64,000 nt of DNA from Isoetes taiwanensis (Eukaryota; Streptophyta; Lycopodiopsida; Isoetales; Isoetaceae). This document shows positions 12,928 to 58,818 of the stretch, piece by piece (positions within the stretch are counted from its first letter, which is position 1; each line of letters starts with the position of its first letter). The translations under genes were made by a program, and so were the position numbers. The notes under the pieces are model-generated. The model saw only the letters and a program-made list of their open reading frames with translations. It made no database searches and was not told the DNA's origin. The stretch covers positions 8,747,525 to 8,811,524 of the forward strand of contig JAJEKV010000017.1 of NCBI GenBank assembly GCA_021234155.1, read 5' to 3'.

Positions 12928-12943
12928 TTCTTCCCCACCTTGA
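12928..12943 (-). other. polypurine tract of element 1
   Basis: Read on the minus strand, TCAAGGTGGGGAAGAA directly abuts the 3' LTR. This is the expected primer position for plus-strand DNA synthesis. Confidence 0.8.
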
Positions 12944-17960: not shown

Positions 17961-17964
17961 TTTC

Positions 17965-19668: not shown

Positions 19669-21051
19669 CTATCTGATGTATAATGCTAAATTGCCATCGC
19701 CAATTGCCCTCGCCCGCCTATAAGGGATTGCAAAGTCGAAGATGGTCAATGCAATCGCTCTCTTGATCAGGACAACATGATCGATGTTTGATGCTAATCG
19801 AGCATGGTGTCCAAATCCTGAGAGGGTGATAAGCATAAAGACCCCTTCTTTGCCTCGTGGGTTAAATTGGCGGTGAATAACCGCTATTCTTCCGTCTAGC
19901 AGCAACGGCAGGTAGTATCTGAGTGCTTTATCATGCCCTGCTTCTTCGGCAGATGAGGAAGTTGCCCTGTGCCTTCCCGCGAAGTCATCCACTTGTACTT
20001 CCTCTAGCTCTCTGAAGTCTTGGTGCACCAGCCTCCTTAGATTGATACTGCCTCCATGTTGCTTCAGGATTGGTATTGGCGAGCTCGGTAACAATGCTGA
20101 TGTGGACTTGCCCTTGATGCCCATTTGTTCTTGAATCGCCATGAACTCCTCCTCCCAGGGCAATTCCTTTTCGGTCATCATCGCCTCGATGCCAAAGACG
20201 CTTCTATATCGATGATGTCCGGCGGTGAAGGTCCGGCTTCTCTTATGCTGATAGGAAGTCTCCGAGCTTCTCGATCGATGAAGTCGTCGAGATCTACCTC
20301 GCCGTCGTAGAAGGTGCAAAATCTCATCCACCCTAAGGCCCTCGCCGCTGCATTGTGGGAGATTCTTAATGTCATGGAGGGTTAGGTATGCCTCACCCGC
20401 TATGAATACCGGTGTCAAGCTTGTAATGCCCTGCCCGAAAGTGGTGGGGCTCTTCTTGTTGCTCTTAGTCCCTCTTCGAAGCTTTGGATCTGTTGTTACT
20501 TTCTTTGCCCTCTTGCTCCAGATCTAGGTCTTCAGGGTCCCACTCGTATTCCTCCTCTTCTTCTTCTTCTTCTTGCTTTCGTACTTTCGAAGTCAGATCC
20601 GTTCCTCCTCCGCTCACGGCCATGGCTATGGGTTCAACTTCTAAAGGCTGAACGAGGGTTCCCCTATCCTGGGTTTGACCCAGAAAGAGATAGAAAGATG
20701 GCTACACCGGCCAGTATAGGAGAAGTACCTCCTCCTATTGACGAGAAATGGACATGTAGTTGGGAAGGCGGACTGCTTTTATTCTCTAAATACTTATCTA
20801 CATTTGGGATATCTTGCAGGGCTGACTTGAGGGCAGTGTTAGGTGCAAAATATCCTACACAAGGTGGGAGTTCTACCAAAGATGGTCCTATCTTGGCGTG
20901 GAACTCAGACATAATGCTCTGGTAGAAGGGAGTGGCGTTGATGGTAGCTTCAATGTCGAGTTCCTTCGAAGACACTGAAGACGGATTCGATGTCGCCTTC
21001 ACCACATGAGCCGTGGTATTTGTACCATCGCTTGAATGAAGAAGTGGCCAT
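19669..21051 (-). pseudogene. element 1 ORF2, conserved protein of unknown function
   Basis: Starts at a methionine at 21051 (MATSSFKRWYKYHG), homologous to the start of ORF2 in element 2 (MAPSNFVRWYD). It runs, with at least two frame changes, to the stop at 19669, about 460 codons. The C-terminal part is the best conserved between elements: KALRYYLP, then an HR.F.PRG segment, then LSGFG.HARL and a DHV.L.KR.-AL-DFA run. I do not recognise the family. No signal peptide, membrane helix or protease-like motif was seen, so nothing supports an env function. Its place between the H3-like ORF and gag is the same in both elements. Confidence 0.7.
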
Positions 21052-21332
21052 GGGCACTAAGGAGCTGGGGATGACAGACAGATGCTGAAGCGCCCTAAGG
21101 ATCAGGGAAATCGGCTTGGAGCAGAGAGCGAGGTTGTAAGGCGCAAATGACACTTGGGTTCCCCTTTATAGGCAAAACCCTAATTTTGGGAAAATTTTAG
21201 ATTCGCATTTGTCTGAATTTCTAGGGTCTAGAGGTATAATTCATGGGCTAACTGAGCTTGGAAATACTTCTAAGGGTCCCTAAGCAATGATTTTGGTTCG
21301 TTAAGGACAGCTTTGGGGTCAATTCGGACGTG

Positions 21333-21817
21333 ACCACTCACACAAAGGTCGCCTTGAGTGGGATTGGTTTGGGGACCGAATCGGTTGGCAAGCACTCGTG
21401 AGGGGTGGGCTCTTATTTAGATCAATAATGATGCTAACTAGAGAACTAAGGGTATAATCCGGGTATCTCATTGAGATAACCTGGATTGAGCCCCTTACGC
21501 CTTTATTTGGGCAAGTTTTGGTCTAGATTGGGGGTCGACCACTCACACAGTGCGCCATGGGGGGATCGGTTTGCAAACCGAATGAGCTTGGGCGCACTCT
21601 GTAAGGGGTGGAACTCCATTCGGGCTGATAGTTGGCGGTTTTGACAAACTATGGGTCAAATCCTACTAATTAAGGTGAGTCGGGTCGAATGGTATACCTA
21701 CTTTCTCGCATTTAGGCAAGATTGGGCACCAAACTATGCTCGACCACTCACCAAGTCGCCAGGCGAGTTGGTTTATAAACCGAACTAGTTGGGGCGCACT
21801 CACGTGAGGGGTGGGAC
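21333..21817. repeat. three hairpin repeats between H3-like ORF and ORF2
   Basis: Three copies of a unit of about 75 bp lie at 21333-21409, 21538-21612 and 21743-21817. Each opens with ACCACTCAC and closes with a GTGAGGGGTGG-like block (GTAAGGGGTGG in the second), which can pair. The middle holds a second dyad that changes sequence but keeps pairing: CGGTTT/AAACCG in the second copy and GGTTTA/TAAACC in the third. Two more copies lie at 24180-24249 and 24390-24467, upstream of the H3-like ORF. Confidence 0.8.
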
Positions 21818-21909
21818 CAAAATGCTTGGTTTTGTTCCAATTTTACTAATTTCTAAATACGTAATTGTAATGCATCCTACTTACACTCAATTAATTTACC
21901 AACTACAAA

Positions 21910-23730
21910 CTTATACTAGAGAGAAGGTTATCTACAAAGCAGTTCAAAAGGTTCTTTCTTAATATCTGCGCTAGCCTCATATCTTTGGGCATACAAGTGG
22001 CTCTCTTAGCGTCTTTGGGCACACATAAATGAAGTCTTCAAAGTGGTGTACGATGTGCTGCTCCGACGCCTCCTGCAATGCAAGCAGCATGTCGTCCGTG
22101 ACCCGTTTGGACGGGTCGAACTCCTGCAAAATCTCCCTCGTCAGACGTGCAAAGGAAGCTCGGGGAATAAGGAAGCCATAGCTCTGCTGGAAGTGCTTGA
22201 TTTCCTGGACCGCCCGCGCGAATTTTGAGTCCGCCGGTCTCTTCATTGGCTTCTTCGGAGGGGTTGGCTGTTCCGGTGGGGGCTTCAACGTATTTTTCTT
22301 CGTCGGCCGACCTCCTTCAATGGTCCTCACCCTGTGTTCTTCATAGTATTTGGAGTATTCTTCGTACCAGGGTAAATTTTAAGGGTCCTAAATGTTTTTC
22401 TATTCAAATTAAAGTTGGCTAAACCTATTGAAAATAAAAGTTCATAGATTTTTATTAGGCGAAATTTGATAAAATAAAACCCTTTAGTTATCTTTCCACT
22501 TGGCTAAAATGTAAAATTTATATGATGTGAAATTCTTATATTGGCGAAATTTTCTTGGTTAGTGGCTAAAGTGCAACTATTTAACTTCAAATTCTAAGCA
22601 CTCATTACCACATGAATGACAAATGATTCAATATGCTTTCATTCCAGAACAATAACAAAGATTCAAAGTACAATTCATACGGAGCAAACAATACCATTTA
22701 AGGGAACACACATATTTATGTCGGGGTCAAATGCATCCAAATGGTTAACTTGGTGCATATAGCCCTTTAAGATCAACAATTGCAAGAATAAACACTATTA
22801 CTTAGAGCTTAAAATGCTCACTACATAACATTCTTCATAATCTTTAACCTAAAAAACTTAAAGATTCACGTTCATTATAAATCAAAGCATGATTGATATA
22901 GCTAATGGCGACTCCTAAATTAAAGAGGTCCTTGAATAGATTCAACATGGCTATTTGAATTGATCAGGATGAACCGAAGCAGCTTCAGAGAAGGCGATTT
23001 AGCATGCCATGATGCAGCCAATTTTGGCTAAACTCTAGGCGTCCAAAAATTTTTCCTTCTTGCAATGGCTAAATTATTTTTTTCCTTAGAAAATGATCTT
23101 TGTTAACTTTAGCCACAAAATTTGACTAAAGGTCTACAAAATAGCCATTTGGCGAATTTTAGCCACTCTTTAATACCCTGCTTCGTACATTTTCATGTAC
23201 GAAGTGTACTCCTTCAACTCCTTCCGGTACTTCAAATCCCGCTTCAGCGCATAAGACTCCCTTTGCGGCCTTGGTTTCTTGGTGCTGTCGCTGGGGTGCT
23301 TCGGCGACGGCCATTTAGGATAGGGCGGTGCATTAGCCACAGGATCTTCATCCTCCGGTATTGGGTTGGAAGGCCCCGAAGTCCCTCCCGGTTCGTGTCC
23401 TCCCGCTCCCTCCTCAGATTCGGAGTCGGACGAAGATGGGGGCTTCTCAGGATCCCGCTCCTGTATGGTCACTCCTACAGCCGGCGTCTTCTTCTTCTTT
23501 GGTTTCTTTGCCGGCACCTCCGGGTCCTTGCCTTTCTCCGCTCTCACCCTCCCCCGCTCCTCCTTGCGCTTCTTCCTTTCTTCCCTCCTCTGTTCCTTCT
23601 CCTCCCTCCTCTTAGCCGCTCCTCTTTTTCTTTGCGGCGCTTCGCCTTTGATTTCTTGGTGGCTTTCTTCTCTTTTCCTCTTAGCCTTCTTTGGTTCGGG
23701 GCTCACGGTTACGGTTCGGTTCTTCGTCAT
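21910..23730 (-). pseudogene. element 1 histone-H3-like ORF (interrupted)
   Basis: First extra ORF of element 1, with ATG at 23730. The N-terminal half (23730-23181) is basic and acidic low-complexity sequence with PPYPKWP, matching the equivalent PPYPKWPKP of element 2. An 813-bp MITE splits the gene. After it, 22367-21910 encodes a histone H3 fold: VQEIKHFQQSYGFLIPRASF (alpha-N/alpha-1), LTREILQEF, then LLALQEASEQHIVHHFED (alpha-2). The last part (MPKDMRLAQILRK, alpha-3) is readable only after a frame change near 22020, at a position where one base of a likely GCG is missing. Unlike element 2, the N-terminus (MTKNRTVTV) does not copy the H3 tail. Function is unknown; incorporation into or mimicry of nucleosomes is an inference. 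Confidence 0.82.
22368..23180. mobile_element. hAT-like MITE inside the H3-like ORF
   Basis: An 813-bp AT-rich insertion with an exact 8-bp duplication CTTCGTAC (22360-22367 and 23181-23188). The terminal inverted repeats start with CAGGGTA (CAGGGTAAATTTTAAGGG and CAGGGTATTAAAGAGTGG). The 8-bp duplication and CAGGG ends are typical of hAT elements. No transposase ORF is present. Removing it with one duplication rejoins the two halves of the H3-like ORF in frame. Confidence 0.88.
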
Positions 23731-24179
23731 CGCAAAGATCTCCCTCTCGGCTCCTTCTCAATTCCTGGTGGCGTCCATCTCCCGGTCAGCTGCTCGATAC
23801 TTGTTCTGCTCTTACGGGTTAGGGTTAGGTGGTTCTACAAGTGCCTCTGTTCGCCCCGATGTGTGCTTATGCGTATGCGGCCTTCGCCGGACGGCCCGCT
23901 CTCTGGCGCCGACATAACCGGGTGGCATAACCTTTGCGTGCGGTTTGTTTCATCCGTGCCATGCTTTTGTTTGACGAAGTTTCGAGCTTTGGCGCTGAAG
24001 ATCGTCTTCTTGGGCTTAGCTGTTCTCAGGAAAAGGTGGGGATAAAATAGAAAACCAAATTTTCTATTTATAGGGAGGTGGAATTTAGGGTTGGGACCTG
24101 CAATTCATATGGGGAAAAACAAACTAGGGCATTAGCGAAGGTACGAGGCATTCTGGTGGTTTACCATACTCTAAAACAC

Positions 24180-24467
24180 CCACCACTCACACACGGTCGC
24201 TGGGCGGATTGGATTACCAATCGAATGAGTGCAGGCTGTGAGGGGTCGGCTTTTTTGAAGCTATTTTATAATTCACGGGGAGTTTCTTAGTGTTATAAAA
24301 TACAAACCCGGACTAGAATGAAGGGAGTAAACTAATCTATACTATCGGTTTAATTAACTTGTACTTCTATTTAGGTCAACGTTGGTCAACCCACTCACCA
24401 CGGTGCTTTGGTTCGATTCGGATTGCAAACCCGAATGGCCCCGGGCGCACTCGTGAGGGGGGGCCGG
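24180..24467. repeat. two hairpin repeats in element 1 leader
   Basis: Copies four (24180-24249) and five (24390-24467) of the element 1 hairpin repeat, located between the primer site and the H3-like ORF. Copy four keeps the inner stem with different bases (GATTGG/CCAATC), a compensatory change relative to copies two and three. Confidence 0.75.
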
Positions 24468-24657
24468 CTTTCTTGGCAATTTAGGTTGGGTGATGCTACA
24501 CTTCACTAGCAATCTAGCATGGAGCTATGTTCTAACCCAAAATTGGAAAAATTTTCCCAATTTTTGAAGCTCTTGCTTGGGTGGCTATACCCCAAGACTC
24601 GAATCTCTTGTTAGTCCTAAAGGGAAAAATGGCGATTCTTTCGATCTTGGATGCCAA

Positions 24658-24674
24658 GATCATGCTCGATACCA
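24658..24674 (-). other. primer binding site, tRNA-iMet type
   Basis: One base inside the 5' LTR, the minus strand reads TGGTATCGAGCATGATC. It matches the usual plant initiator-tRNA-Met primer site TGGTATCAGAGC except for one missing A. Confidence 0.8.
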
Positions 24675-24675
24675 C

Positions 24676-26223
24676 TGTGACGTCCCCTACTCCTTATACG
24701 ATGCCCGCATCGTATTCGAAGGAGGGCCATCCACCTGACTCTACTCCCATGGAGCAGAGCCAGCAAGGGAAGAGTGGATGTGTCATTCACCCGTCTCCCA
24801 TCGGGTCGACCTATCTGCGGAAGCATGAGCAAACAAACGTGAGCACAACTAACAATATACAAATACAATCATCATAGAGATAGTAACATCACAGAGATAA
24901 CAATACCTTCATAGCAACAATACAAAGGGGAGATCCTACCCAGGACTCAGACTCAAGGAGAATGACTGACGGCTAGGTCTCGAGTTCATGCAGGACGAGA
25001 ATTCATGGCAATGGATTTGGTGGCATAGAACATGGCTTAGGGTAGTCCACTCCATCCGCCCCTCCCGTGCACACTTTGCAGAGTAGGCTGAAAAGTGTTG
25101 GGACTTGGCCGTAGCCTGCCGGGTGAATAGCCAGAGGGGCTACTACTGCTGGGTTGCATCTCCCCAGCCCCGATGAGGCAGGAAGAGAGTTGCCTCTCCT
25201 CCAGAGGTATCCATGCTCATCACGGGCGGCTAGAGGGCCATTGCCCTTATTCGACTTGAACTCCTTTGGAAGGTCATATCCACCACCCCACAGTGTCGAG
25301 CTCATGCCTTGCCCACACGCGGTGACAAGCCATTAAGCCTAGCCAAAGACCCCCGATAGGCTTTACTACCGGAGGGGTCAGTCCGCTGATGAGACAAGTT
25401 CCTCCTTATCAACCCGGCCTTGCCCCTTCACCCCTGACCGGGTGGGCTCTCGCGGCGCGGGCGCATTTATTTGGGAACTAAGGTGCTATGCTAGGAGCAT
25501 CTCATGCCGACGACCTTTAGGTCTCTACCCCCTTCCCAAAACAAGGAGATCACAGAGTGGAATACATACAATATCACAGAACAGCAATAGAGAATCACAT
25601 CAATCTATCTACTTAACATCCAATGTTAGGTTCATTCGTTAGAGTCTCAGATCTAGGGATCTACAAGGCTTCAGAGATGATCTAACATACTAAACCCGGC
25701 ATATTGCCACGCCCAAAGACGGTTTTGCACTGTGTTTCTTGGATACTGCTCCTTGGCTTGCTCCCCGATCCTCGGAAAGCGTCCATGCTCCTGGTCTTGC
25801 GAAGACGGCGCTACTCAACAACTTTGTTGTGCAATTCGACTTTTTGAACTGGCAATGCGATTTTGAGTCCTACCTTGGCGAATTGGCCCGGGGAACCCTA
25901 ATTGAAAAGAGGAAAGGAAGCTCTAGAGAACCCTAATTGGCAAAGTGAAAAGGAGAGCTAGGGTCTAGGGTTTTAGCCCTTATATAGACCCTATCTAGGT
26001 TAGGGCATCCACATAGACAAATGGCTTTAAGCCATTTGGAAATGGATGAACAAGGAACCTTTTGTTGTGTATGTTTAATTACATACCCAACATCCAAAGT
26101 TGCCCCCTAGGTGCAACCTTTAGCTCCTATCCCGCTCTCAAGTACATGTCATCCGTGACATGTACGTGTGACGTGGCAGTATAATATACGTATTGGGAGC
26201 GTATATTATGCTGGAACGTCACA
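24676..26223 (-). repeat. 5' LTR of element 1
   Basis: Begins TGTGACGTCC and ends GGAACGTCACA, giving the TG...CA inverted ends. On the minus strand a TATA-like TCTATATAAGG lies at about 25977-25987, roughly 240 bp inside U3 and so a likely promoter. Close to the U3 tip lie the dyads TACATGTCA/TGACATGTA and ATAATATACG/CGTATATTAT (26181-26190 and 26200-26209). Confidence 0.93.
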
Positions 26224-41727: not shown

Positions 41728-41732
41728 GTTTT
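41728..41732. repeat. target-site duplication GTTTT, left copy
   Basis: Directly precedes the TG of the left LTR and is repeated exactly at 58814-58818. Confidence 0.93.
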
Positions 41733-43366
41733 TGTGACGCTCCCTGCTAAACATACGGTACCCGACCGTACACGCTGCAGGAAATCCCCCGTCCGGCTCA
41801 ACAACCGCACAGGCCCTCCGTCTATCCCGCACTCTGGGATCTCCGTAGTGTGGGAAGGGGACACGAAGGTGTCTTGCGCGCCCTTCCCCTATGGGCTCCT
41901 ATCACAGCGGAAGCATAAACACGTCAGAACTAGCAATACAATACAATATGCTACCCCGAGGGTAGCTCAACTGCACATCCATAGATGCAAAGAACATAAT
42001 CATATACCATAAAACATGAGAGCTCCTACCCGTGGCTCTGACACATAGGGTAGTCGATCGAATTGGATAGGCCTCAAGATAGAGCGCACCAGAGTCATAA
42101 CAATGGCGGGCTGGCATAAGACAATGGCTAGGGTTGACCACTCCATCCGCCCCTCCATTGCATACTTTGGATGGGCTAGATCAAGTCGTGCATGACTCTA
42201 ACCTTCCGGATCACGTAATCCCATGGCATCACCCATCGGGACTACTCCGTGTTGCATCTCCCCGGGTCCGGACGAGGTAGGAAGGGTTGCATCTCCCCTT
42301 CCCGGGGTCTAGAGGCTCCATGGGCGGCTAGAGAATCGTGACGACACACGATTCGTACCCGACTGAACCCCCCAAAACAAGAGCCAAGCTGACACTTGCA
42401 ACTTTTGAGAGGCAAGGCGACACCATTGCCCCAGGAGGTGTCGGACCCATGCTCGGCCCACACGAAGTGACCGACCATAAGCCTAGCCCACTAAGGGATC
42501 CCCCGAAGCCCCCACTCGGCAGGGATCCACCCTCCATCTTGCCTCTAGCCCCGTTATGTGGTGCTGAGTCACATCATAGCCTCCATAGCCCAGTGGGTTC
42601 CTATGCACAGGCCGCAACTAATAGGAACTAAGGGATCTACACTAGGAGCATACTACATATGGCCCTAGGTCTCTACCCCCCCGTCCCCATACAAGAGGAG
42701 CAACATGATCAACCAATATCACATACATCACACCATGATCAATATCAATATCATATGAACATCTTAACCTAATCATACATAGCTAACTAACAGTTAGGGT
42801 TACTTGATTAGGGTTCGAGATGTTCAACAAAGGATCTAGGGTGGCTCTACTCTAGATACGAACTACTAACCCATCTGGAGTGCTAACTTCTAGATGAACT
42901 AACATGAACTCTACTCAACCTACCTCCTCCAGAAGCGCTTCCTCCCATCCCTGGCGTCTCCATGCTCCTTGACGTGGGTCGAAGGCTTGCTCCCTCTACG
43001 ATCATACACACCTTCCAGGGGCTGCTGCTCCAGGCTAGACTATGACGAACGGTGCTCGAAACGGGGTTTCGGGCACGTGGATGAGAGATCAGGTGCTAGG
43101 TCAGGGAAAAGGGTCTAGGGTTAGGGTTAGAGCCAATATAGGTGTGGGTCCACATCACTACTAGGATGAGGCCGTGTGGCGGTTGCTCCAATAGGATAAG
43201 GCCATGTGGAAATGGGCCTTATCCTAAGGTTATCTAAGTTAAACAATTAACTTAGATGTGCGCCCTTGCCACTTTCTGAGGCATACAAGGCTACCTAGGT
43301 AGACTTGTATGGTGACGGGTCCAGGAATATACGTATTTATGGCGTATATTCCCTTGGAACGTCACA
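41733..43366 (-). repeat. 3' LTR of element 2
   Basis: Begins TGTGACGCTC and ends GGAACGTCACA. Near the right end (the U3 tip on the minus strand) the arms GGAATATACG (43324-43333) and CGTATATTCC (43343-43352) form a 10-bp dyad with a 9-nt loop. Element 1 has the same dyad at the same place. It preserves the uninterrupted site that the Helitron hit in the other LTR. Confidence 0.95.
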
Positions 43367-44165: not shown

Positions 44166-45560
44166 CTAACCTCCTGGCAAGTCGGGGTCGACCAAGTCGG
44201 AGATGACTCGCCCATCAAACTCCTTCATAAACTCTGGGTATTGCTTCTCCAAATCCTGCTTCAATACCCATGTCGCGTCTTCCACGGGCAAGTGCTTCCA
44301 CTTGACCAAATACTGGATGAACTGAGACCTCCTCGTCTTCTTGAATGACTTATCAAGAAGTAACTCAGGCACAATTTCAACCTGCTCCTCAGTCATTTTC
44401 AACAACGTTGGAGTATCCAAAACCTCATCAGGATTAGGATTGTGCCTTTTCAATAAACTTACGTGGAAAACCTTGTGAACTTTGAGATGGGCGGGAAGAT
44501 CCAACTTGTAGGCTTGGGAGCCCACTCTCTCCAAAATCTTGAACGGACCAGCCCATCGAGGGGCAAGCTTCTTGCAACTTCCAATCCGAAGCTTAGCTTG
44601 CTTGACCTTGATCTTCAACCACACGCTATCGCCTACCTTGAACTCTCTTACGGTCCTGTGCTTGTCGGCTACACTCTTCTGCCGACTTCTTGCTGCTAGG
44701 AGGTAACCTCTCACTTCTTCCACCAACTGCTGCATATCTCCTAGCATTTGTTGGGACACTTCAACCTTAGACACGGGGTTGTGCCAAGTGTCCTCTGAGA
44801 TGACTCCTGTTTGGCACTATTGTAGGCGAATTCCACCAAGTGGATGTACTCATCCCACTTGGACTGCTTATTCCACACAAAGCTTCTGAGCATGTCTTCC
44901 AAGATTCGATTTGTCCTCTCCGCCTGACCATCTGTTTGGGGATGATACGCTGTGCTCATGGAGAGCTTCGTCTGAATGGTGCTGAAGAGGTCCTGCCAAA
45001 AAGCACTCATAAACTTGGAATCTCTATCAGATATTATCTCCCGAGGCATGCCATGGAGCCTAAAAATCTCCTTCACAAATAGCTTGGCAGTGTCTAATGC
45101 TGTGTCGGTAGTTCTACAAGGCACAAAATGTGCCATCTTAGATAATTTGTCTACTACGACCATCAATGCATCCTTGCCTCGAAGAGTCTTGGGAAGTCCT
45201 GTGATAAAATCCATACTTACCACTTCCCGCCTTCGTGATTCTAAGCACCGCTAGAGGTTCCAAAGCTCCCGGAATTTAAGCTGCTCCGCTTTGGTTTGCC
45301 GACACAACCGGCACTCACACGAATATATCTTGCTATCCGCTTCTTCATTCCCGGCCCGAAGTAGCTACCGAATCTTGAAGTAGGTCTTCATAAAACCTGC
45401 ATGCCCTCGCTATTGAAATTTGTTGTGTGTGTCGTGAAGGATTAGCTTCCTTATACCCGACGATTCGGGCACACACAACTTATCTTTATGGTACAACAAG
45501 TTGCCTTCCTTCTTATAATGCTTGAAGGCTTCTCGTTCCTTATCTGTTTCTAGCCTCCCC
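44166..45560 (-). pseudogene. element 2 integrase with chromodomain
   Basis: The zinc-binding region (about 45560-45290) is present but frameshifted (HYKKEGNLLYHKDKLCVP, GHAGFMKTYFKIR). The catalytic core is open from 45223 to 44741. [24 protein letters not shown] and [20 protein letters not shown] supply the D, D and E residues. A frame change then leads to 44774-44166, which has WAGPFKILERVGSQAYKLDL and HLKVHKVFHVSLLKRH. A chromodomain follows (FIQYLVKWKHLPVEDATW, with PELLLDKSFKK before it). It integrates the cDNA; the chromodomain is expected to read histone methylation or other heterochromatin marks. Break points coincide with CG-rich sites. Confidence 0.92.
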
Positions 45561-45611: not shown

Positions 45612-46135
45612 TCAATTTTCTTGCCATACCCACTTTCGAAAGAGTTGATATAGCATTACAATGAGTTTCGCCTCAAGGGGTCTTCTAGAAAGAGCATCGG
45701 CGACCACATTCAACTTACCTGGCTTATAAGCAATCTCAAAATCATACTCTTCTAGGAATTCCATCCACCTCCTTTGCCTTAGATTAAGGAGTGGTTGGGT
45801 AAAGATGTATTGGAGGCTCTGGTGATCAGTATCTAACTGAAACTTCCTCCCAAGCAAATAATGCCTCCAAATACGAAGAGCTCGACAATGGCTAGAAGTT
45901 CCCGATCATGGGTTGGATAGCCGCTTTTCGGTGTCGTTCAACTTCTTGGAATCATAAGCTATTACTCTTCCTTCTTGCATAAGGACTCCAATTGCCGCTA
46001 TCTTACTTGCATCTGTTGCTACTATCTTGTCCTTGTCGGATCTCGCGAGAATCCTAGCACCGTGTTTGTTGTTAAGGCCTCCTTAAGCTTTTCAAATGAA
46101 GCTTGAACATTTTCTAACCAATGTGTTCCCCAATC
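45612..46135 (-). pseudogene. element 2 RNase H
   Basis: Continues from RT after a frame change near 46135. Pieces in shifted frames read KDKIVATDASKIAAIGVLMQ (with the first catalytic Asp) and RVIAYDSKKLNDTEKR. The open part at 45857-45612 has [32 protein letters not shown] and [10 protein letters not shown]. RNase H degrades the RNA strand during cDNA synthesis. Confidence 0.88.
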
Positions 46136-48137
46136 TTTCACCGAGGTCCGTCAAAGGGGACGCCCACTTAGCGAAGTCCTTTACGAACTTCCTGTAATAA
46201 CCTGCCAGACCTAGAAAGCTTCTTACTTCCGCCACGTTCTTTGGAGCTGGCCAATCTACTACTGCTTCGATCTTTGCGGGGTCGGTGGAGATTCCCTCCG
46301 CCGATATGACATGGCCCAAGTACTCCACTATTTCAGTAGCAAAGTGGCATTTGGAGAGCTTTCCATACAAACGATGCCGCCTCAACTTTTCTAACACCCT
46401 TCTCAAATGCTGACTATGATCCTCAATGGACTTGCTGTAGACTAGAATGTCGTCGAAGAAGACAATGACAAACTCATCTAGAAAATCCCTGAAGACATCG
46501 TTCATGAGGCGCATAAAAGTTGCTGGAGCATTCGACAATCCAAAGGGCATTACTGTAAACTCAAAGTGACCATACCGCGTTCTGAAGGCGGTCTTATGGA
46601 TATCTTCTTCCTTTATCCTTATTTGGTGGTATCCTGACCTTAAGTCAATTTTAGAGAATACCTTTGCTCCTTGGAGCTGGTCCATCAAATCGTCTGCCCT
46701 TGGCAATGCATACTTATTCTTTATCGTCTGCTTGTTGAGCTGGCGATAGTCTATGCACATTCTTAAACTGCCATCTTTCTTCTTCACGAAGAGTATCGGT
46801 GCTCCAAAAGGAGACACACTTGCTCTAATAAAACCAAGCTCAAGCAATTCCTGGAGTTGCTTCTTGAGCTCTGTCAACTCCGGTGTGCTCATCCTGTATG
46901 GTGCCTTGCTGGTAGGCTTAGCATCTGGTGCTAATGTGATCTCACACTCCACACCCCTATAAGGTGGGAGCTGCCGGATCTCATCCGGGAATACATCCTT
47001 GAATTCCGAAATAATCCTTGCTACTTGCTTGGGCAACTGCTTCCCCTTTTGGTCGTTTCCATCCTGTTTATTGGGCTCAATTGCCTCTAACCTCAAAATG
47101 TAATCCACCTTATTTCTTTCTATACTTTTCCTTAGCTGCTTCAAAGAAATACACTGCATAGAAGAAGCTGCCTTCTTACCTCTCACTATGAATTTGGTGC
47201 CGTCCGGTGCTGTCATGGCGACTTCATTGCGGTCACAGTCGATCATGGCTTTCGCTGGCTTTAGGAACTCCATTCCTACTATAAGGTCATACCTTCCAAT
47301 TTCCATGACCTCTGCCCCCATCGGCCACTTACTTCCACTAAGGTCTATGTCGAATGCAATCCTCCTCCCCTTAGTGTGCCGAATGGCGCCGTTTGCCATA
47401 GCAACTGGCCTTGGCTTAGACTTCAATACCTTGTTCTTCATTAGGGCAGCCAGCCTAGGAGAGGCGAAGTTGTGAGAGCTACCTGTGTCTATAAGGACTA
47501 CATATGGGTTGCTATCTATGATTCCATCAGCCGCAATCACTGTCGACTGATTTTCTATATCACCCGACTCAATATTTGCACAGATATGGCACTCACCATC
47601 TATGAAGTCCTGGGCCTCATGCTGGTCATCGTCATCGTCTGCTTCTGTTGGTGAATCCCAATCCATGAGCTCTGCCAAAGCTGCCTGCATGACGAATGGG
47701 CAATCATGTGTTCGGTGCCCTGGCTGGAAGCACCTGAAACATAGTTTCTTCTCGATACACTCATGTCTCTTCTCTTTCGTCAGACTGTCTAGGATGCGCT
47801 TCAGCACACTGCCCCCTGATGCATTCTGCGGCTTACGGTCCCCAAAGGTCTTACCCTGAGCTCTTCCCTGGTGCTGGCCTCCTGATGGCGTAGCTGCTGA
47901 TTGCTTACTCTGGTACTGCCCTTGGTACTGCCCTGAAGCTTTACCCTTGAAGGCCGACTGCTTCTCTGCTGGGGTTGATGGTGCTTCCTCCAAACTTATG
48001 GCTTTATCCTCGGCTTCTGCTACTGACTTTGGGTTGATTGCTCGGACTAGCCTTTTGATATTGCTGTTCAACCCTTCAATGTAGGTATCAACCGCTTGTC
48101 TTTCTGATACTCCGGGAACATGGAGCCTGAGCCGCAT
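46092..48137 (-). CDS. element 2 gag C-terminus, protease and reverse transcriptase
   Basis: One open frame of 681 codons with no gag/pol stop, so gag-pol appears to be a single polyprotein. Domains: gag C-terminal part to about residue 130; CCHC zinc knuckle [14 protein letters not shown] (residues about 132-145); aspartic protease [14 protein letters not shown] (about 213-226) with [17 protein letters not shown] with [61 protein letters not shown] and the catalytic FFDDILVYS; then the connection with [11 protein letters not shown] and [11 protein letters not shown]. All RT catalytic aspartates are present. The first Met is internal; translation very likely enters from upstream gag. The frame breaks just after the RT connection. 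Confidence 0.94.
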
Positions 48138-49172: not shown

Positions 49173-50695
49173 TCATCGGTGGCCCTTCATGTTCTTGAAG
49201 AAGTTCTTGATGTTCTTGAGATGCAGCCCTTTGCCGACGTTCTGCAATATCCTTGCGGCTGATCCTCCTTCAAGTGCTCTAGCCATCTGGGGTGCTGGGA
49301 GTTCGGGTGCCGTTGCTGCCACCACTGACAAATGTGCATCCCTGAGGTGGCCCCTGGCGAAGTCGAGGCAGTGAAGAGCTACTGATCTCTTGAAAAGGAT
49401 GACATGGTCCGATGCGTGGTCTAGTCTGGCGTGCTGCCCAAAGCCAGAGAGGGCTATAAGGAGTGCAACAGACTCTTCTCCTCTTGGGCTAAACTCCCTG
49501 TGGAATACTATCATCTGCCCTTGTCTAAGAGCTGGAAGATAGTACCGAAGCGCCTTGCCTTTACCCGTGATGTTGGACCCTGTGCCTCTTCTGCCAGCTG
49601 CTTCCCCATAGATGTATATTGCTACGAGGTCTTCGTGGTCCCTCCACATTGTGGTAGCGTTCTCCAAGTTGATGTTGGCATGTGCCTCACGCTGAACTCC
49701 TCGAACGGACCGGCCTGGGCTAGAGCTTGGACCCCTTCCCGGCTTATACAACCGCTTTGTATCTGCTGGAACTCTTCCTCCGGGATGACAGTTCCCGTTG
49801 TCGATAGATCTCCCTTATCTGGCCGATAGGCTTCTATATCGACATTGTTTGCCCTGTATGAGTGTCGCTCCGATAACTCCCCTTGGAAATTCCCGGTAGG
49901 AGTAGTCGATGAAGTCACCGCCTCGCTCTTGTGCAATTAAGCCTAGGAGCTCGTCGATCGAGGCCTTCTTCTTGGCAATGGGGAGGTTGAGGATGTCGTT
50001 AGCCAAGATGTACTCCTCTCGTCGCGTCGATGATCACCGGTGACATGGCCGTGATGCCAAGTGGTGGTTCGAAATCTCGCCTTTAGTGTGCCTTCCCCGC
50101 CTAGCTATTTGCCTCTCCATCCTTGCCGCTGGGCTCATTTCCCAACTTGGGTTCTCCTCCACTTGCCGCTCGTAGTCTTGCTCAATCTGGCAGCATGGGT
50201 GTTGCCGAGGTGGAGCCATAGTGCTGCACTCGTGGACTCGATTTCGTGGATGCCGACCGCTCCCTTCGGGTTGAGAGGTGCTAGATCTAAGGGCTGAATT
50301 GACGGCTCCCCTGGTTGGTTGACTGCCTTGTACTGCATGAACAAAGCTAAGGCTGCTTGGTTTGAGAGGTATCTGTGCCTATGATGCTTACAGGTCATGT
50401 AGTCTGGCATGCTTCTGGTTCTATCCCACACCTTATTCTTTGCCTTGGCTCCCCCACCTATGGCTTGGGTCAGAGAGTCTAGAGAAACCCATTTCCCTCC
50501 CCTAGGTGGCAAACTAACTTCCCAGGGTAGTATCTGCTGGTCATATTGGCAAATGATGTCGGTGTAATAGGGAGTCCTAGTCAATGTGGCATGGAGATCA
50601 AAGAGGTGGTCGAAGACATGGAAAGCTTGGTCGGCAGGAAAATCACGGATGTGATTGGCGGCGTCATACCATCTGACAAAGTTTGAGGGCGCCAT
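49173..50695 (-). pseudogene. element 2 ORF2, conserved protein of unknown function
   Basis: Starts at MAPSNFVRWYDAANHIRDF (ATG at 50695) and runs about 500 codons to 49173 in three frames (50695-50135, 49936-49622, 49751-49173). Conserved with element 1: the F.RWY start and an early TPYYTDI-like segment (TPFYQSI in element 1). The C-terminal block reads KALRYYLPALRQGQMIVFHR, FSPRGEESVALLIALSGFGQ, HARL and DHVILFKRSVAL. No known domain, signal peptide or transmembrane helix was recognised. Conservation between two diverged elements suggests it was maintained for element function. An extra structural or accessory protein is a guess. Confidence 0.75.
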
Positions 50696-50999
50696 TGAGC
50701 AGAAAAGAGTATGAAAAATGGCTGATGAGGACAAGCAAGGAACTAGAAAATCGCCAAAAGGGCTGAGAGCAATTTTGATGGTAAGAAAATGACAAATGAG
50801 GGCCCCTTTTATAGACTAGGACTGCCTCGGGTTCCGTGCACAAGGGTTCTTGACGTGGAAGGACTTTGTTCAAAGGCTATGAGTGTCCAAATGAGCTACC
50901 ATGAAGTGCAATTCTAAGCAAAACAAAGCAAGAAACACTACATGGCAGGTTGCTGGGTCAAAATTGGTCAAATTAGGCCAAAAAGGGCCAAATCGGAAT

Positions 51000-51436: not shown

Positions 51437-52594
51437 TCAAGGGTACTCCTTGCGGATTCTCCGCGCCAAGTAGAGGTCCTTGGGCATTACGGTCACCCTC
51501 TTGGCGTGAATTGCGCATAAGTTGCCCTCCTCAAAAAGCTGGGTCAGCTCTGCTTCGGCTGCCACCTGCAGGACTCGTGTCGTCAGAGATGTCACCCTAT
51601 AGTCGGTGACGAACTCCTGCATCACTTCCCGCATCAGTCGCTCGAAGGGAGCCTTCCTGATCAGGAGATTAGTGCACTGCTGGAAGTGCTTAATCTCCCG
51701 GAAAACGCGGGCGTGCGGCGAATTAGGCCCATGGTGGACCTTCTTCGGCTTCACCGGACGTGGAGGTGGTGGCTTCGGCTGGTCCTTCTTCGGCCGGCCG
51801 CCCTTGACGTAGCGCTCCACGTTCTGCTTGCAATACCAATCATTGTACCTCGTCCAGCGACGAAGGTACTCCTGGTATGCCTTCAAGCGGCGCTTGAATT
51901 CGCGATCCTCTTGGAGCGCGAATGCCCGCTCACCCACCTTCTGGTTCTTGACTACCTTCGGTGGCTTGGGCCACTTCGGGTAGGGTGGGCGTGCGTTGGG
52001 GTCTGATGGCTCCCCAACGTCTTCCTCTTCCTCCTCGGCTTCCTCCTCCTGCTCCTCGTTGCTCCCGCCTCCTCCTTCCTCTTCCTCCTCATCCCTTCCC
52101 CGGGCCTGAGGTCCTTCAATCACGACAGTCGTGCGAGGTCTGTCGTTTCTTCTCTTCGTTCGCCGCTCCTTCTCGAGCAGCTCCCTCAACCTCTTCTTTC
52201 TTGCTGCCATTTCCTCTGGCCACTCTGCAACCTTCTCTTTGCCCTTTTTCTTTGGTGCCGAAGGGCCTGCCTCTTGAGTTTGGTGCCGGGGCTCCTCTTG
52301 GTCTCCCTCCTGCTGCTCCACCTCCGTATCAGACGAGGGCCCAAAGTGGCGGGACTCGCCGGTTCTCTCGGTGCCCGCCGACGAAGAACTGCTGCTGCTG
52401 CTGGGCGCCTCCTCCTCCTCCTCCTCGGAGACGTGGAAGGTGTCATCGCTGCTGCTGGAGGGGAACTCCCCTTCACCCGGCTTAGGTCGAAGGTGTTCCG
52501 GAACCTTCTTGACATGACGACCCGCTGCTACCTGAGCCATCGATAGCGTAGGTCTCTCGCCCGCCTTCCTGGCTGTTTGTTTGGTGCGAGCCAT
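51437..52594 (-). CDS. histone-H3-like protein with H3 tail, encoded by a retrotransposon
   Basis: An open frame of 385 codons, the first gene after the 5' LTR and primer site. Residues 1-10 are [10 protein letters not shown], identical to the start of histone H3 including K4 and K9; position 10 of the mature tail is Ala instead of the phosphorylatable Ser. Residues about 40-200 are Ser/Glu-rich and low complexity, with basic clusters. A Pro/Lys region ([24 protein letters not shown]) leads to a full histone fold at about 297-383: [20 protein letters not shown] (alpha-N/alpha-1), [22 protein letters not shown] (alpha-2), [20 protein letters not shown] then RRIR (alpha-3). The last block is almost identical to canonical H3. 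It is three times the normal H3 length. Its place inside the element, and a diverged counterpart in element 1, argue against a host histone gene. Role unknown; nucleosome incorporation, chromatin tethering or decoy are inferences. Confidence 0.93.
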
Positions 52595-53148
52595 ACTTAA
52601 CGGTCCAGGAAACGGGTGATGTAAGGCTGATCAAGAGAGAGATGGTGGAGAAAAGTTTGGAGGGAAAATGAGGTGTCAGGGATATTTAAAAAGGAGGGCC
52701 CCTGGGAATATTCTCCTACCATAAATAGGCCTACTTATTAGCCCCCCTTATTAATTACACCATAGTACCCTTATTATTAATATATGTTTAATTTCTAATA
52801 CATATACTAAAATTCGTATTATACCTTTAGAATTTCAAATTTCCTAATAGTTTGAAGTATTAATTATGGATTTGCGCCATTTTTCACCCAGGTCTCCGAT
52901 TGGCATGATTCTTCGACCCATTTTAGGTGAAATTTGATGCAGATGCATAATTTTCACTCCAATCTTACTAGAAGGTGAATTTGACTCATTCACTTCTTAA
53001 CCTAATTTCGGACCCACTATCTAGGAGAAAAATTTTTCCCCTATTTTCGAGGTTCGATGGTGGAAATTTTTATTTCACACCCCTATAAGCCTGTTAGACT
53101 ACTTTCATGGTTATGGTCAGTGCTAGTTCTTGGTCAACCAAGAACATC
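52595..53148. other. element 2 leader
   Basis: Lies between the primer site and the H3-like ORF. AT-rich, with no ORF recognised; likely the 5' untranslated region and packaging region. Confidence 0.6.
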
Positions 53149-53160
53149 GCTCTGATACCA
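53149..53160 (-). other. primer binding site, tRNA-iMet
   Basis: The minus strand reads TGGTATCAGAGC one base inside the 5' LTR. This is an exact match to the usual plant initiator-tRNA-Met primer site. Confidence 0.95.
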
Positions 53161-54202
53161 TTGTGACGCTCCTCGCTAAAACATACTGCACTGCACCGCA
53201 CACTCTGCAGAAATCCCCGTCCGGCTCAACAACCGCGACAGCCCTCCGCCTATCCCCCTCACTCGGGATCTCCATAGTGGGAAGGGGACACGAAAGGTGT
53301 CTTGCGCGCCCTTCCCCTATGGGCTCCTATCACAGCGGAAGCATAAACACGTCAGAACTAGCAATACAATACAATATGCTACCCCGAGGGTAGCTCAACT
53401 GCACATCCATAGATGCAAAGAACATAATCATATACCATAAAACATGAGAGCTCCTATCCGTGGCTCTGACACATAGGGTAGTCGACTGACCGGATAGGCC
53501 TCAAGATAGAGCAGCACCGAAGTCATAACAATGGCGGGCTGGCATAAGACAATGGCTAGGGTTGACCACTCCATCCGCCCCCCTGTGCATACTTTGCGGA
53601 TGGGCTAGATCAAGCGCGTGGCATGACTCTAACCTTCCGGATCGTAATCCCATGGCATCACCCATGGGGACTACTCCAGTTGCATCTCCTCGGTCCGACG
53701 AGGTAGGAAGGGTTGCATCTCCCCTTCCCGGGTCTAGAGGCTCCATGGCGGCTAGAGAATCGCGGACGACACACACCATTCGCACTGACTGAACCCCCCA
53801 AAACAAGAGCCAAGCCGACACTTGCAACTCTTGAGAGGCAGTATGACACCATTGCCCCGGGAGGTGTCGGACCCATGCTCTCGCCCACACCTAAGTGACC
53901 CACCATAAGCCTAGCCCACTAAGGGATCCCCCGAAGCCCCCACTCGGCAGGATCCACCCTCCATCTTGCCTCTAGCCCCCGTTATGTGGTGCCGAGTCAC
54001 ATCATAGCCTCCATAGCCCTGGGTTCCTATGCCGCACAGCCGCAACTAATAGGAACTAAGGGATCTACACTAGGAGCATACTACATATGGCCCTAGGTCT
54101 CTACCCCCCGCCCCCATACAAGAGGAGCAACATGATCAACCAATATCACATACATCACACCATGATCAATATCAATATCATATGAACATCTTAACCTAAT
54201 CA

Positions 54203-57200
54203 TCTTCTTTTTAAAAAGGGATGGCTTTGGTTTTCGGGCCTGGAACGCCGCATGTAACGCCGCATGCGGCGTTCCCTATCCCGCTCGCGGGATTTTTTTT
54301 CCTCTACACGCGGGATGATATGAAATCGAGCCCCTTTCTCCATCGTCTCCAATGGCGCTATTCTATCTCTGGCGGCGTGATTCTGACTCTTGCTTTAAGG
54401 TTTGGGCACTGCCTTCCTCTTCCCAGCGTCAATATTTTTTGGCAATATTTCTCTCTCTTTACGTTTTAATCCATTTGTGCCCCTCTCAGACGTAAAGGCT
54501 ACTCCCTGTTATGTGACGTTCATCTGCGGCAGAGCTGCAGCACCAGAGCTTCATCTGGCACCATCACAGGTAGAACCTTTAACTCCTGTTTCCTTCTCTT
54601 TCTATTTTTCATGAGATTTTTGGTTTTTCAGACGGTTTTCCACTGGTGTATGTGTTTCAGTGCTTCTTTGCCTGTACAAAATGCAATATGTGCTTAGTTT
54701 GTGTTGGATTTGGGCTCGATTTATGCAGATTCGATTCACTTTTCGTGTCTTTTTATTAACAGAGATGGAAGCCATCTGTAGCAAGTGATAACGTGATTTC
54801 TAGCATTTCGATGGGGGCAAAAATGGGCTTATCAGAGGAGTAAAATCGACTTATCCAGGGCAGCAAATCGGTCCTGATCTTAGGTAGATTCTCATATTCC
54901 TTTTTTTTTTGTTGTACCATCTTCTTTGGTTTTCAACCTGATTATTTGGTGCTAATAAGGTCTGCCCGAATGCATTACATTTTGTTTCCTTGCACAGTGT
55001 CCTATTACTCTGCATTTTTGTACATGCAAGGTTTGAGGCGTCATTTTCTTGCTTGGGATCAAACATGGGTCCATCTCACCTGCTGAAACAAGTTTGTGTT
55101 TGTGGCAAGTGCAAGCAAGGAAGTTCTGTTTGTGTTTGCGAATTTGGGAGCTTTTTAATGTTGTGCAAGAGCAAGAAAGTAGTGGGGTTTGCAGGTAAAC
55201 TTCATGATCTGTCATTTGGTTCAGGCTTTTGCAGGTGATCTTTTGCAGATATACCTCGGCCTAGCACAGACACAATTACGTCTTTGCAGATCTGACCCGG
55301 CAGTTTTATATGCACAACAAACGTCTTATAGAAAGCTTCCACAATCTGGGTGGATTTTCCTCAACTAGCTGATGTTCATACTTTCTAAGGTGATTATGAA
55401 TGTGCTGTATGTTAGGGATTATTATAGGCTTGCTCTTGGTTAACTAAATACAATACTCCATGTTGCTGAAGTATGGATATTCTCTGTACTGTTGCAAATT
55501 ACTCAAAAAGCAGTGCCTACCATGATTTCCAGTTTAGCATCATCTTTCTAGGGAGCTAATTTGTTGTTTCTGTTATTGCAGAATGCAATGAGATGTCATA
55601 GCTGCTTTGAATGGGATTGAAGTGGATGGTGGGAACACATACGTTGGCAGATTATTTTGGGATACTGTCTTGGCTACGTGTCTTTCAAATTTGTCTTCTT
55701 TGGCGTATCTACGGGAAAGTTTACATCTTCTTTGCCTGACCTATTGTTAAGTTTACAACATGTGTTCCTTATCAGTTTAAAACTGCATGCATATTCATCA
55801 AACAACCATAAAGTAAGAAAAGGAAAGATTCACATCTCTTGAAAAATGGTTGGGCAACTATGGTAACTATAAGTAGTTATGAATCAGTAAATCATGAAGC
55901 TAAAGCTAAGGTGTATATGATGTTGTCTTAGCTTATTTACTTGATATTTAACTGATATGTTCCTTCTCATGTTGTGTGGGCATTAGCATTGCATTTATAA
56001 GAACAAATAAGAACAAATACAAATACATGCTTTTTTTTTCAATGCATCATTCCAAGCTAATTCTTAATAATTCTGTATTACAGATTACTAGATCATTGAA
56101 GGGTATGATTCGATCCTAAACTCCATTTCAGCATTGAACTAAATCGGCATAATAACATAGAAGGATTTAGCAGAAAAACATATTTCAGAATCAGGGGTCT
56201 ACGCCAAAGTCAGGTATTTAAAATATATAGAATAGGTGCATATTTGTTTGTAGAATTTGGATTAACTCCAAGTTCGTCTATCTTCGAAACCAGTTCACAT
56301 GTATTTGGAAAGGCCACATGCAAATGCATCTAGAATTTGTAGTTTTAAAATGTAAATTCAGACAGGAAATAGGCATTGTTTTTGCAACATTGCTTTGATC
56401 AATGTTTGATCATTTTTGTGGTTTTGCAGGGATTAGCATCTGTGATAATATAGTACTGAAAACAAGCTCAGTGTCATGGAATGTCAAGGTTAACCAAAAA
56501 GCTATGTTGAGTACTGCCTGCACATGTAAGAAATATTAAACCTGCCACGTGTGTTTTTGTTCCCAGATTTATTATTACACCGAACATGAATTTTTGTAGC
56601 ACATTTCAATTTGTTGCACTGCATGGGCTAAGATTAGCATTATGCCTTTTACCCTTTTACTTTTTTTCTATTATTTTTTCTATCATTATTTCTGCCTTCC
56701 ATTTATTATCATAAAAATGTCGAGGATTTGATTTGTCAATTTATTTAAACCAGTGTTTGAATGGAGTGTTTACCTGTGTCTTTCTTTGCATTATGCAGGT
56801 GAGATAGTTGCAGATGGTTTTTGGGTCGTTCGGGTCTTCCAACCTGACGCGGTAGGGATTATATATGAATGCTTCACATGCTGTTTGAAAGTTACTATAT
56901 ATGCCAACAATGGTGGAGGATAGTTCATAGACAATAAATGAAAAACATCAATTTGCATATGAGAATTCATGAAAGGCTTGATTCATGCACTGCTTACACC
57001 AATTTGCTTTCAAATATGAACTGGATATGGCAAGTTGGAAAGAGTAGGTTCCCTTGGACTGAAAAGGGAGGGATAAGAGAGCTTCCTTTTCATCCTTAAA
57101 GATGTTTTGAGATAGCGATAGCAATGAAATTCTTCAATTTATTATGTATGTTGCTTCAAAACGGCACTATGCTCCTTAAGCTTGAAAGGTGCACATTTAT

Positions 57201-58229
57201 TATTCTTTACGTTGGAAAAAATATAACTCAAAAGTATAGACAAGTGGAAATCCAAAGAAATCCTGCAATAAAAGAAGACGACATTAAGATCAAAGGTTCA
57301 TATCAAGGTATAGCGTTGCACACATATTGCACATACTATTGCCCAATAAGTCGATGCACTTTTGTGGAAGGCCTATGTATAAACGGCATTTAAAAGCCAA
57401 AGTCCGATGTCTCAATCCTATAAATACAAAAGGAACCACTAAGCACCACCTTGGCTATACATTAATGGCATTTAAAAGCCTAGGTTGTTATGACTTCAAA
57501 CATTTAATGGTTTAAGACTAAAAGCATTTATGACATTGTTAGTCTCAAGGAACTCAAAGGATTGTAACATGCATCTTATAAATGGAGCATGTAGTACTAT
57601 GTCATCACACCACTCTAGGGGTAAGGGGTTTGGGATGAGTGTATCAAGCATCTTTCAAAGATAGAGACAATTCCAAAGGGGGATTTCTTAGAAATAGTTC
57701 GGTTCATGACCCTAGGGATAACCTTTGCCCCCAAGCCCTTACGCAGGGTAAGGGTTGGCGAGCCCGCTAGGCAGAGCCACTTCCGCACCTTGCGTCAAGT
57801 GCTCCGATTGAACCTTACTTCTAGATAATGGTCAGTGGGAGGAAAATTCAGCCGTCGGAGGTTCATGGGAGCCATGTGCCATGATCCCAAGCCTAAGATC
57901 ACAAGTGCTAACATCATAGGCCTACCTGGCTTACATCATAACATATATTTTTGGATTTAAGATGGGCTTGAAATGGGCGTATGTTCCTCCACCCAAAGCA
58001 ATTGAGTAAATAGAACGATAGCACACTTATATTGCAATATCTACTAATAGGACCTACACTTGATTTGATGTGCGATCTTCCACATAGCCAATAGCCTGAA
58101 CTGTATACACTATTACATCCATAGACACAATGCCGTTTAATGCTTTTAACTCCAGCTACAAGCTTATTACGTCTATCCATACCACACGTCCATGACAAAT
58201 GTCCGGCATCGCCGGGCTCACGTTTCTAG
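54203..58229 (+). mobile_element. non-autonomous Helitron, 4,027 bp
   Basis: Begins TCTTCTTTTTAAAAAGGG and ends CTAG. It sits exactly between A (54202) and T (58230), with no target duplication. The intact LTR at about 42775 shows the empty site AATCA/TACATAG. Twelve bases before the end lies a GC-rich hairpin: GTCCGGC (58201-58207), ATC loop, GCCGGGC (58211-58217). TC start, hairpin, CTRR end and A/T target are the Helitron hallmarks. There is no Rep/helicase ORF, so it is non-autonomous. The interior has exon-like pieces, suggesting gene capture. Confidence 0.92.
55581..55651 (+). pseudogene. exon-like fragment, possibly RRM, in the Helitron
   Basis: After an acceptor-like TTATTGCAG, the sequence reads DVIAALNGIEVDGGNTY in one frame. 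This resembles the end of an RNA-recognition motif (A.. .LNG.E.DG.). It is too short to be sure. Other acceptor-like borders occur in the Helitron (near 56430 and 56800). It is a candidate captured gene fragment. Confidence 0.3.
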
Positions 58230-58813
58230 TACATAGTAACTAACAGTTAGGGTTACTTGATTAGGGTTCGAGATGTTCAACAAAGGATCTAGGGTGGCTC
58301 TACTCTAGATACGAACTACTAACCCATCTGGAGTGCTAACTTCCAGATGAACTAACATGAACTCTACTCAACCTACCTCCTCCAGAAGCGCTTCCTCCCA
58401 TCCCTGGCGTCTCCATGCTCCTTGACGTGGGTCGAAGGCTTGCTCTCTCTACGATCATACACACCTTCCAGGGGCTGCTGCTCCAGGCTAGACTATGACG
58501 AACGGTGCTCGAAACGGGGTTTCGGGCACGTGGATGAGAGATCAGGTGCTAGGTCAGGGAAAAGGGTCTAGGGTTAGGGTTAGAGCCAATATAGGTGTGG
58601 GTCCACATGGGATGCCACGTGGCACCACTAGGATGAGGCCGTGTGGCGGTTGCTCCAATAGGATAAGGCCAATAGGTTATCTAAGTTAAACAATTAACTT
58701 AGATGTGCGCCCTTGCCACTTTCTGAGGCATACAAGGCTACCTAGGTAGACTTGTATGGTGACGGGTCCAGGAATATACGTATTTATGGCGTATATTCCC
58801 TTGGAACGTCACA

Positions 58814-58818
58814 GTTTT
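58814..58818. repeat. target-site duplication GTTTT, right copy
   Basis: Exact match to 41728-41732, bounding element 2. Confidence 0.93.

Follow-up and report, generated by a model that had tools for sequence, protein, structure and literature searches.

A predicted histone H3-derived protein conserved in Ty3/gypsy retrotransposons of the quillwort Isoetes taiwanensis

The multiplication of an H3 gene by a mobile element has been described in fungi, where hAT DNA transposons carry H3-like genes (H3L; see PMC3538342 for Pyrenophora tritici-repentis and PMC6710886 for Pseudocercospora fijiensis and others). Judging from the available portions of these reports, they constitute the closest precedent for the locus described here. 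The plant Ty3/gypsy chromoviruses (Tcn1, Galadriel, Tekay and Reina) have a common gag-PR-RT-RH-IN order and a CHD_II-like chromodomain, as set out in the accessible parts of PMC3350952 and PMC2864245. In addition, the LTR retrotransposons of bdelloid rotifers have captured extra ORFs, which different families have in common as modules; the extra ORF is there an ORF3, and enzymatic (GDSL esterase, DEDDy exonuclease) or env-like (PMC5408684, in the sections available). A retroelement-encoded histone was not found in the literature searched, and an earlier report may exist elsewhere. The word "histone" is missing from the accessible main texts of the Isoetes genome papers, including the one on the Isoetes taiwanensis genome that was built from Nanopore, Illumina and Bionano data (PMC8566536).

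We have analysed a window of 64,000 nucleotides of this genome (contig JAJEKV010000017.1, positions 8,747,525 to 8,811,524 of the forward strand), which holds two related LTR elements, here called element 1 and element 2, each with an H3 ORF. Based on the identity and the conservation of such ORFs at the sequence level, it is nearly certain that they represent a lasting, H3-derived module in a Ty3/gypsy group of at least two sets of elements. The relevant features are, in window coordinates:

11313..26223, minus strand: element 1, related LTR element (target-site duplication AATAG, LTR K2P 0.0353)
21948..23962, minus strand: H3 ORF of element 1, diverged and broken
22368..23180, minus strand: 813-bp insert in the H3 ORF of element 1, with CAGGGTA..TACCCTG ends and the 8-bp duplication GTACGAAG (by eye)
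41728..41732, minus strand: target-site duplication GTTTT of element 2 (other copy at 58814-58818)
41733..43366, minus strand: 3' LTR of element 2 (K2P 0.0295 versus the 5' LTR, substitutions only)
44166..45223, minus strand: integrase core (45223-44741), Tf2-1-like SH3 domain and CHD_II-like chromodomain (about 44369-44214)
46092..48137, minus strand: end of gag, protease and reverse transcriptase, 681 aa open
49173..50734, minus strand: ORF X region, broken in element 2 (open pieces 50734-50135 and 49751-49173)
51437..52594, minus strand: H3 ORF of element 2, 385 codons plus stop, with tail end (residues 1-9), acidic and proline-rich insert, and H3 fold
51440..51718, minus strand: H3 fold, residues 293-385 of the H3 ORF
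52565..52594, minus strand: codons 1-10 of the H3 ORF, initiator Met plus H3 residues 1-9 (ARTKQTARK)
52683..52690, minus strand: TATA-like word TTTAAATA, 96 nt 5' of the ATG
53149..53160, minus strand: primer binding site (PBS) TGGTATCAGAGC, adjoining the 5' LTR
53162..58813, minus strand: 5' LTR (TGTGACG..CGTCACA; ends from the sequence letters), interrupted at 54204-58229 by about 4.0 kb of inserted DNA

The carrier of the ORF shows the hallmarks of the Ty3/gypsy group: LTRs that run from TG to CA, a PBS (presumably of the common plant type) and a target-site duplication of 5 bp. Moreover, the Pfam domains of a sister copy, L033, follow the gypsy order (Retrotrans_gag, RVP_2, RVT_1, RT_RNaseH, H2C2, rve), and a chromodomain at the C-terminus of the integrase (PF00385, E 4e-11) identifies the element as a chromovirus. 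A fungal-type transduplication, with the gene lying between the terminal inverted repeats of a hAT element, does not apply, as the carrier has LTRs, a PBS and gag-pol. Elsewhere in the window an open frame of 792 aa (35377-37755, minus strand) encodes a gamma-tubulin complex protein with GCP N and C domains and is likely a host gene, and a weak reverse-transcriptase match (62202-62672, plus strand; E 0.05, below the Pfam cut-off) is perhaps a LINE remnant. Between the H3 ORF and ORF X lie two copies of a 110-bp repeat, 191 bp apart and 81% alike (50964-51264).

A first-pass annotation, made from the letters of the window, had described the H3 ORF as a 385-codon frame before gag that begins with the exact H3 tail, with Ala in place of Ser10, continues with an acidic and proline-rich insert and ends in a complete H3 fold; it had also noted that the integrase ends in a chromodomain. 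Our analysis bears out this description almost entirely. The interval was right, with the frame on the minus strand, and the tail start and the substitution by Ala are present in the window's ORF. The Pfam model Histone (PF00125) matches residues 270-381 with an E-value of 5e-28 and solved H3 chains align with residues 280-383 (best PDB E 1.5e-28), so that by sequence the core fold is matched from alpha-N to alpha-3. The insert between tail end and fold comprises about 280 residues, Ser/Glu-rich in its first part and Pro/Lys-rich after that, and includes a block PPYPKWP...WTRYNDWYC that is conserved across the aligned copies; the 12 host-type H3 places that were read are without the insert. 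The position relative to gag needs a qualification: the H3 ORF indeed lies 5' of gag, but ORF X (about 506 aa, broken here) intervenes. Since Ser10 and the rest of the tail are missing, the context of K27 and K36 being replaced by the insert, the predicted product is to be regarded as H3-derived and not as a canonical H3. The two AlphaFold models have low confidence, with a mean pLDDT of 47.8 for the full ORF and of 49.0 for the last 100 residues; the helices predicted in the latter (8-26, 30-43, 47-80 and 86-95) may be said to fit the H3 pattern, no more.

The H3 ORF of element 1 still starts with MARMKQTARKG (at 23962). It is homologous to the insert at 23361-23185, including the PPYPKWP block, and retains the fold in two pieces (22327-22034, with 47% identity, and 22010-21948). 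The 813-bp insert that interrupts it we take to be hAT-like. Upstream of the family's H3 ORFs, a TATA-like word is found at -80 to -110 in 26 of the 30 H3 loci fetched. That it acts as an H3 promoter is only a guess, and the idea of an internal H3 promoter is weakened by the finding that conservation spans the entire leader and not the TATA-like word alone.

The ORF is not a private feature of the window. Its absence from other copies of the family had been named in the first-pass annotation as the result that would speak against the reading; in the assembly searched (1,658,258,908 bases in 1110 contigs) at least 107 places were scored out of 17651 first-look candidates, a selected set in that scoring was by single-frame protein matches, and 69 of these 107 are without stop. 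This family is referred to here as family A. An exact PBS lies at most 1500 nt upstream in 24 of the 30 H3 loci fetched. The search with ORF X scored at least 85 places (12630 candidates), and in 25 of the 85 listed an H3 place is located 649-795 nt upstream on the same strand; among the listed family-A H3 places no H3-ORF X pair was in reverse order or on opposite strands. The usual order is PBS - H3 ORF - ORF X - gag-pol. Of the three family stretches read, L032 and L033 align colinearly with the window past ORF X as far as the pol end and have ORF X as an open frame of about 506 aa (L033:829-2346; L032:5883-7403, minus strand), and the third, L031, is without ORF X and without the pol end. 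Counting both sets of elements, ORF X is missing in one of the six stretches read downstream of H3 ORFs. At one further location, G000:C1078:20994065-20996346 (minus strand), a near-canonical H3-fold place comes after an ORF X place, about 440 nt further downstream, which is the opposite of the usual order.

ORF X gave no Pfam match above the cut-off and no relatives in a scan of viral contigs; it may encode a partner of the H3 protein. There is a hint, to be used as a lead only, that the H3-ORF X module predates the gag-pol of the same elements. In a comparison of three elements, one of them decaying, dS of H3-ORF X was 0.9-1.25 versus 0.25-0.45 for gag-pol in two of the three pairs and 0.47-0.51 versus 0.23-0.32 in the third. 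Assembly effects are a possible cause of this gap as well.

Judged by codon comparison, the H3 module has been under strong purifying selection in both sets, with dN/dS between 0.04 and 0.18 at dS 0.4-1.1 for copies that were mostly found by protein similarity, which biases towards low dN. More specifically, the pooled dN/dS of 19 stop-free family-A copies was 0.159 for residues 1-30, 0.133 for 31-195, 0.107 for 196-292 and 0.061 for the fold (0.114 overall, at dS 0.79), and in nine copies of the second set the values were 0.044 (fold) and 0.177 (N-terminal part). The tail was examined in 87 N-termini, of which 27 came from the 30 loci and 60 from the remaining 77 places, after leaving out 15 places with a match short of the N-terminus and five others. 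Here dN/dS was 0.052 for residues 1-9 versus 0.248 for residues 10-29; matches that start at or near residue 1 favour conserved tails, an effect that touches the contrast between neighbouring residues less. ARTKQTARK is exact in 63 of the 87, and the retention of K4 and K9 noted for the window's copy extends to the family (K4 in 87/87, T3 in 86/87, K9 in 85/87), while more than one codon is used at every tail site. At residue 10, F, Y, P or A prevail, and Ser occurs in one N-terminus only.

For 27 of the 30 loci the fold was compared with host H3. At 56 of 97 sites the most frequent residue is that of host H3, including all 26 sites taken as H3-H3 interface and DNA contact. The fold departs from host H3 at nearly all of 39-48 and in much of 82-102, including 87-90; K56 is replaced by Q in 26 loci and by H in one, and K79 by V in all 27. 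The roles that we ascribe to these sites (H3-H3, DNA and H4 contact) are presumed from nucleosome and chaperone work. As the H4-facing sites that differ comprise 84, 85, 87-91, 94, 99, 101, 102 and nearly all of 39-48, pairing with H4 is not assured.

A query with canonical H3 revealed the second set. Out of 9022 candidates 150 places were scored, of which 15 are host-type H3 (96-98% identical to canonical H3) and the other 135 show 71-86% identity, many of them with open frames 230-567 aa long. We read eleven of the latter, mostly picked for long frames, and in ten of these (L046-L055) the H3 fold makes up the C-terminal end of a longer ORF that has another N-terminal domain (MAITKSAPDPTTLSIVEIYAM...). 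Nine ORFs measure 409-451 aa from the first Met and L054 is an open piece of 260 aa; the eleventh place (L056) has a short frame only. A PBS-like TGGTATC[AG] precedes nine of the ten. By eye, ORF-X-like pieces follow all three second-set ORFs that were read downstream (L057, L058 and L059), with gag and protease in L057, gag, protease and RT pieces in L059 and, in L058, no more than a piece resembling the start of gag. The ORF X of the window's family aligns with that of L057 (hhalign probability 94%, E 9e-8), and the comparison with L059 was not significant (E 0.021, probability 2%). The second-set N-terminal domain had no match at E<=1 in the protein collection (7996 candidates scored) and no relative in the scan of viral contigs, and comparisons gave no support for a link to ORF X or to the window's ORF. 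The tail end ARTKQTARK is missing in all ten ORFs, and the fold is kept almost unchanged. The fold is therefore likelier than the tail to carry the core function.

With respect to origin, it is likely, though not proven, that an H3 coding sequence of the host was captured once by an ancestral element, because ORF X and the gene order are common to both sets. The tree lends weak support to a common origin of the folds of both sets: among 20 folds, the 14 retroelement folds appear on one side of a branch (support 79/78). When element 1 was added it grouped with family A (96/92), with long branches in play, and the second set was not separated from host H3. A protein search with the whole ORF returned 2042 matches at E<=0.001, the best 120 of which look like ordinary or tandem H3s by name and length (four sequences were inspected), and the insert region 195-335 had no match at E<=1 (53 candidates). 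Such negatives argue only weakly for absence, because protein collections often mask repeat proteins.

A different picture emerged from the non-coding leader, which as a DNA query scored 40 places out of 1766 candidates. Two of the top 15 are stop-free (the window itself and L004), one has one stop and 12 (L120-L131) have broken frames; all 12 contain an H3 relict, none has an intact frame, and eight retain the exact ARTKQTARK start. Seven of the 40 leader places have an H3 place from the ORF query, five of them stop-free; together with the 12 just described, 19 of the 40 were covered. Relative to the window's ORF the 12 relicts show 13-57 gap events each (single-base 1-29, homopolymer 0-9), and L120, L121, L123, L124, L125 and L128 are each at least 19 gap events away from every other copy compared. 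The many broken frames reflect either common decay or an unpolished assembly at these places; if the decay is real, the H3 protein would act in trans from intact copies. The leaders of L120-L131 are 96-99% identical to that of the window and the ORFs behind them differ by many substitutions and, in several copies, by many indels of their own, a combination that either recombination or an assembly effect might produce.

How an H3-derived protein could serve a retroelement can be outlined from these data. Probably the lineage of the window kept the tail end and placed the acidic insert behind it, and the second set has another N-terminal domain before the fold. The protein would enter the nucleus, pair with host H4 and, via the retained H3-H3 interface, form (H3-H4)2 or nucleosome-like particles on element cDNA or at insertion sites. 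The free ARTKQTARK end would offer K4 and K9 for marking without Ser10 and without the K27 context, and readers and writers might in this way be steered towards expression or integration and away from silencing; intact copies would serve in trans if the broken frames are real. We hold this general scheme, pairing with host H4 in chromatin and the steering of marks, tentatively and at slightly less than an even chance. A version in which the element builds its own chromatin, with particles of element H3 and host H4 on element DNA that present K4 and K9, lack Ser10 and K27 and have ORF X as chaperone or partner, so that the element would set the chromatin state of its new copies, is doubtful. 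The first-pass annotation had put forward chromatin tethering, cDNA packaging or silencing evasion as conjectural roles, and had suggested that the element may supply both an H3 tail and its own reader. The latter is possible but unsupported. The chromodomain has Trp at the W45 position but lacks an aromatic at Y24 as well as at Y48 (placed on HP1 by us), and thus only one of the three aromatics of the methyl-lysine cage of class CHD_I; according to the part of PMC3350952 available, from which the class definition was taken, the absence of aromatics at Y24 and Y48 marks the plant CHD_II class, the binding partner of which is not known. With two of the three cage aromatics missing, the idea of a tail with its own reader is weak.

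Other functions for the protein should be weighed against pairing with host H4. The strong constraint on residues 1-9 compared to 10-29, together with the near loss of Ser at position 10 and the replacement of the remaining H3 tail, would suit a decoy, in which the long acidic protein, through its free ARTKQTARK, titrates or recruits writers and readers of K4 and K9 outside nucleosomes. However, constraint on the fold is about as strong (0.061), and in the ten second-set ORFs read the fold is kept without the tail end, which makes the decoy unlikely. Somewhat less likely again is a role inside the particle, where the H3 fold, perhaps with ORF X, would package RNA or cDNA or bridge capsid and nucleic acid, away from host chromatin: the fixed position before ORF X and the retained DNA-facing arginines are in line with it, but it leaves the free H3 N-terminus kept at K4 and K9 unexplained and does not fit the retained H3-H3 interface. 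A derivation from CENH3, with the element's protein competing with or replacing host H3 or CENH3 at centromeres or heterochromatin, is suggested by some CENH3-like residues (HFQ in alpha-N, LIPRASF in element 1), and a tree that joins family A with CENH3 was not rejected (p-AU 0.41, with a CENH3 row entered by hand). None of the 150 H3 places scored could be recognised as a host CENH3, which makes this a poor test. Nevertheless we consider it improbable, as loop 1 has neither a gap nor extra residues relative to host H3 and the best tree puts the family-A folds with those of the second set.

Explanations without any function fare worse. Passive capture, a chance pickup of H3 that does nothing for the element, could account for the broken frames in 12 of the top 15 leader places; it is largely contradicted by the low dN/dS in both sets at substantial dS, by the silent variation at the tail codons and by the same order in divergent elements, and is very improbable. 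Chance as a source of the similarity is excluded because of the E-values, the at least 107 places and the pattern of silent versus replacement changes. An assembly chimera of a host H3 gene and a retroelement, which the first-pass annotation had named as the other way in which its reading might fail, is refuted: the LTR pair is flanked by the duplication GTTTT, the PBS precedes 24 of the 30 loci and 25 H3-X pairs are consistently ordered. In line with this, element 1 has its own target-site duplication, the family counts at least 107 places, and the 15 host-type H3 places are 96-98% identical to canonical H3, with no insert in the 12 that were read.

Transposons are normally the targets of histone-based silencing, whereas here many elements encode an H3 themselves. 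Selection appears to keep the fold, and one family has also retained the tail residues bearing the K4 and K9 marks under selection. If the elements do build their own chromatin, they would possess an epigenetic system that they encode themselves and that has existed long enough to diversify into several families. The locus offers a direct way to ask if a selfish element is able to write, block or mimic chromatin marks, and its relatives form a natural set of rewired H3 proteins (K56Q, an altered 87-90 patch, no K27) that probably results from long selection.

A comparison with the host and with the systems described earlier sets these elements apart. The element H3 shares tail residues 1-9, the H3-H3 interface and the DNA-facing arginines with the replication-type H3 of the same genome; in contrast to the latter it has the insert of about 280 residues, K56Q and K79V, has lost the context of K27 and K36, and has 87-90 replaced. 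Compared to the plant chromoviruses there are two extra 5' ORFs (H3 and X), and the accessible parts of PMC3350952 and PMC2864245 mention no H3 ORF. As in the bdelloid retrotransposons, extra ORFs appear to have been captured as modules, but in the quillwort the extra ORF lies 5' of gag and specifies a histone, unlike the bdelloid ORF3. The Pyrenophora H3L likewise has tail insertions, and it fits neither H3 nor CENH3 (PMC3538342, in the portion available). However, LTR retroelements carry the quillwort gene and DNA transposons the fungal one. According to the same text the 26 copies in Pyrenophora are almost identical, and in P. fijiensis every H3L copy except the original is RIP-inactivated (PMC6710886, likewise from the available portion), whereas in the quillwort the copies are divergent, dS reaching about 1, and purifying selection acts on them. 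Finally, the fixed order beside ORF X distinguishes the quillwort module from the fungal H3L.
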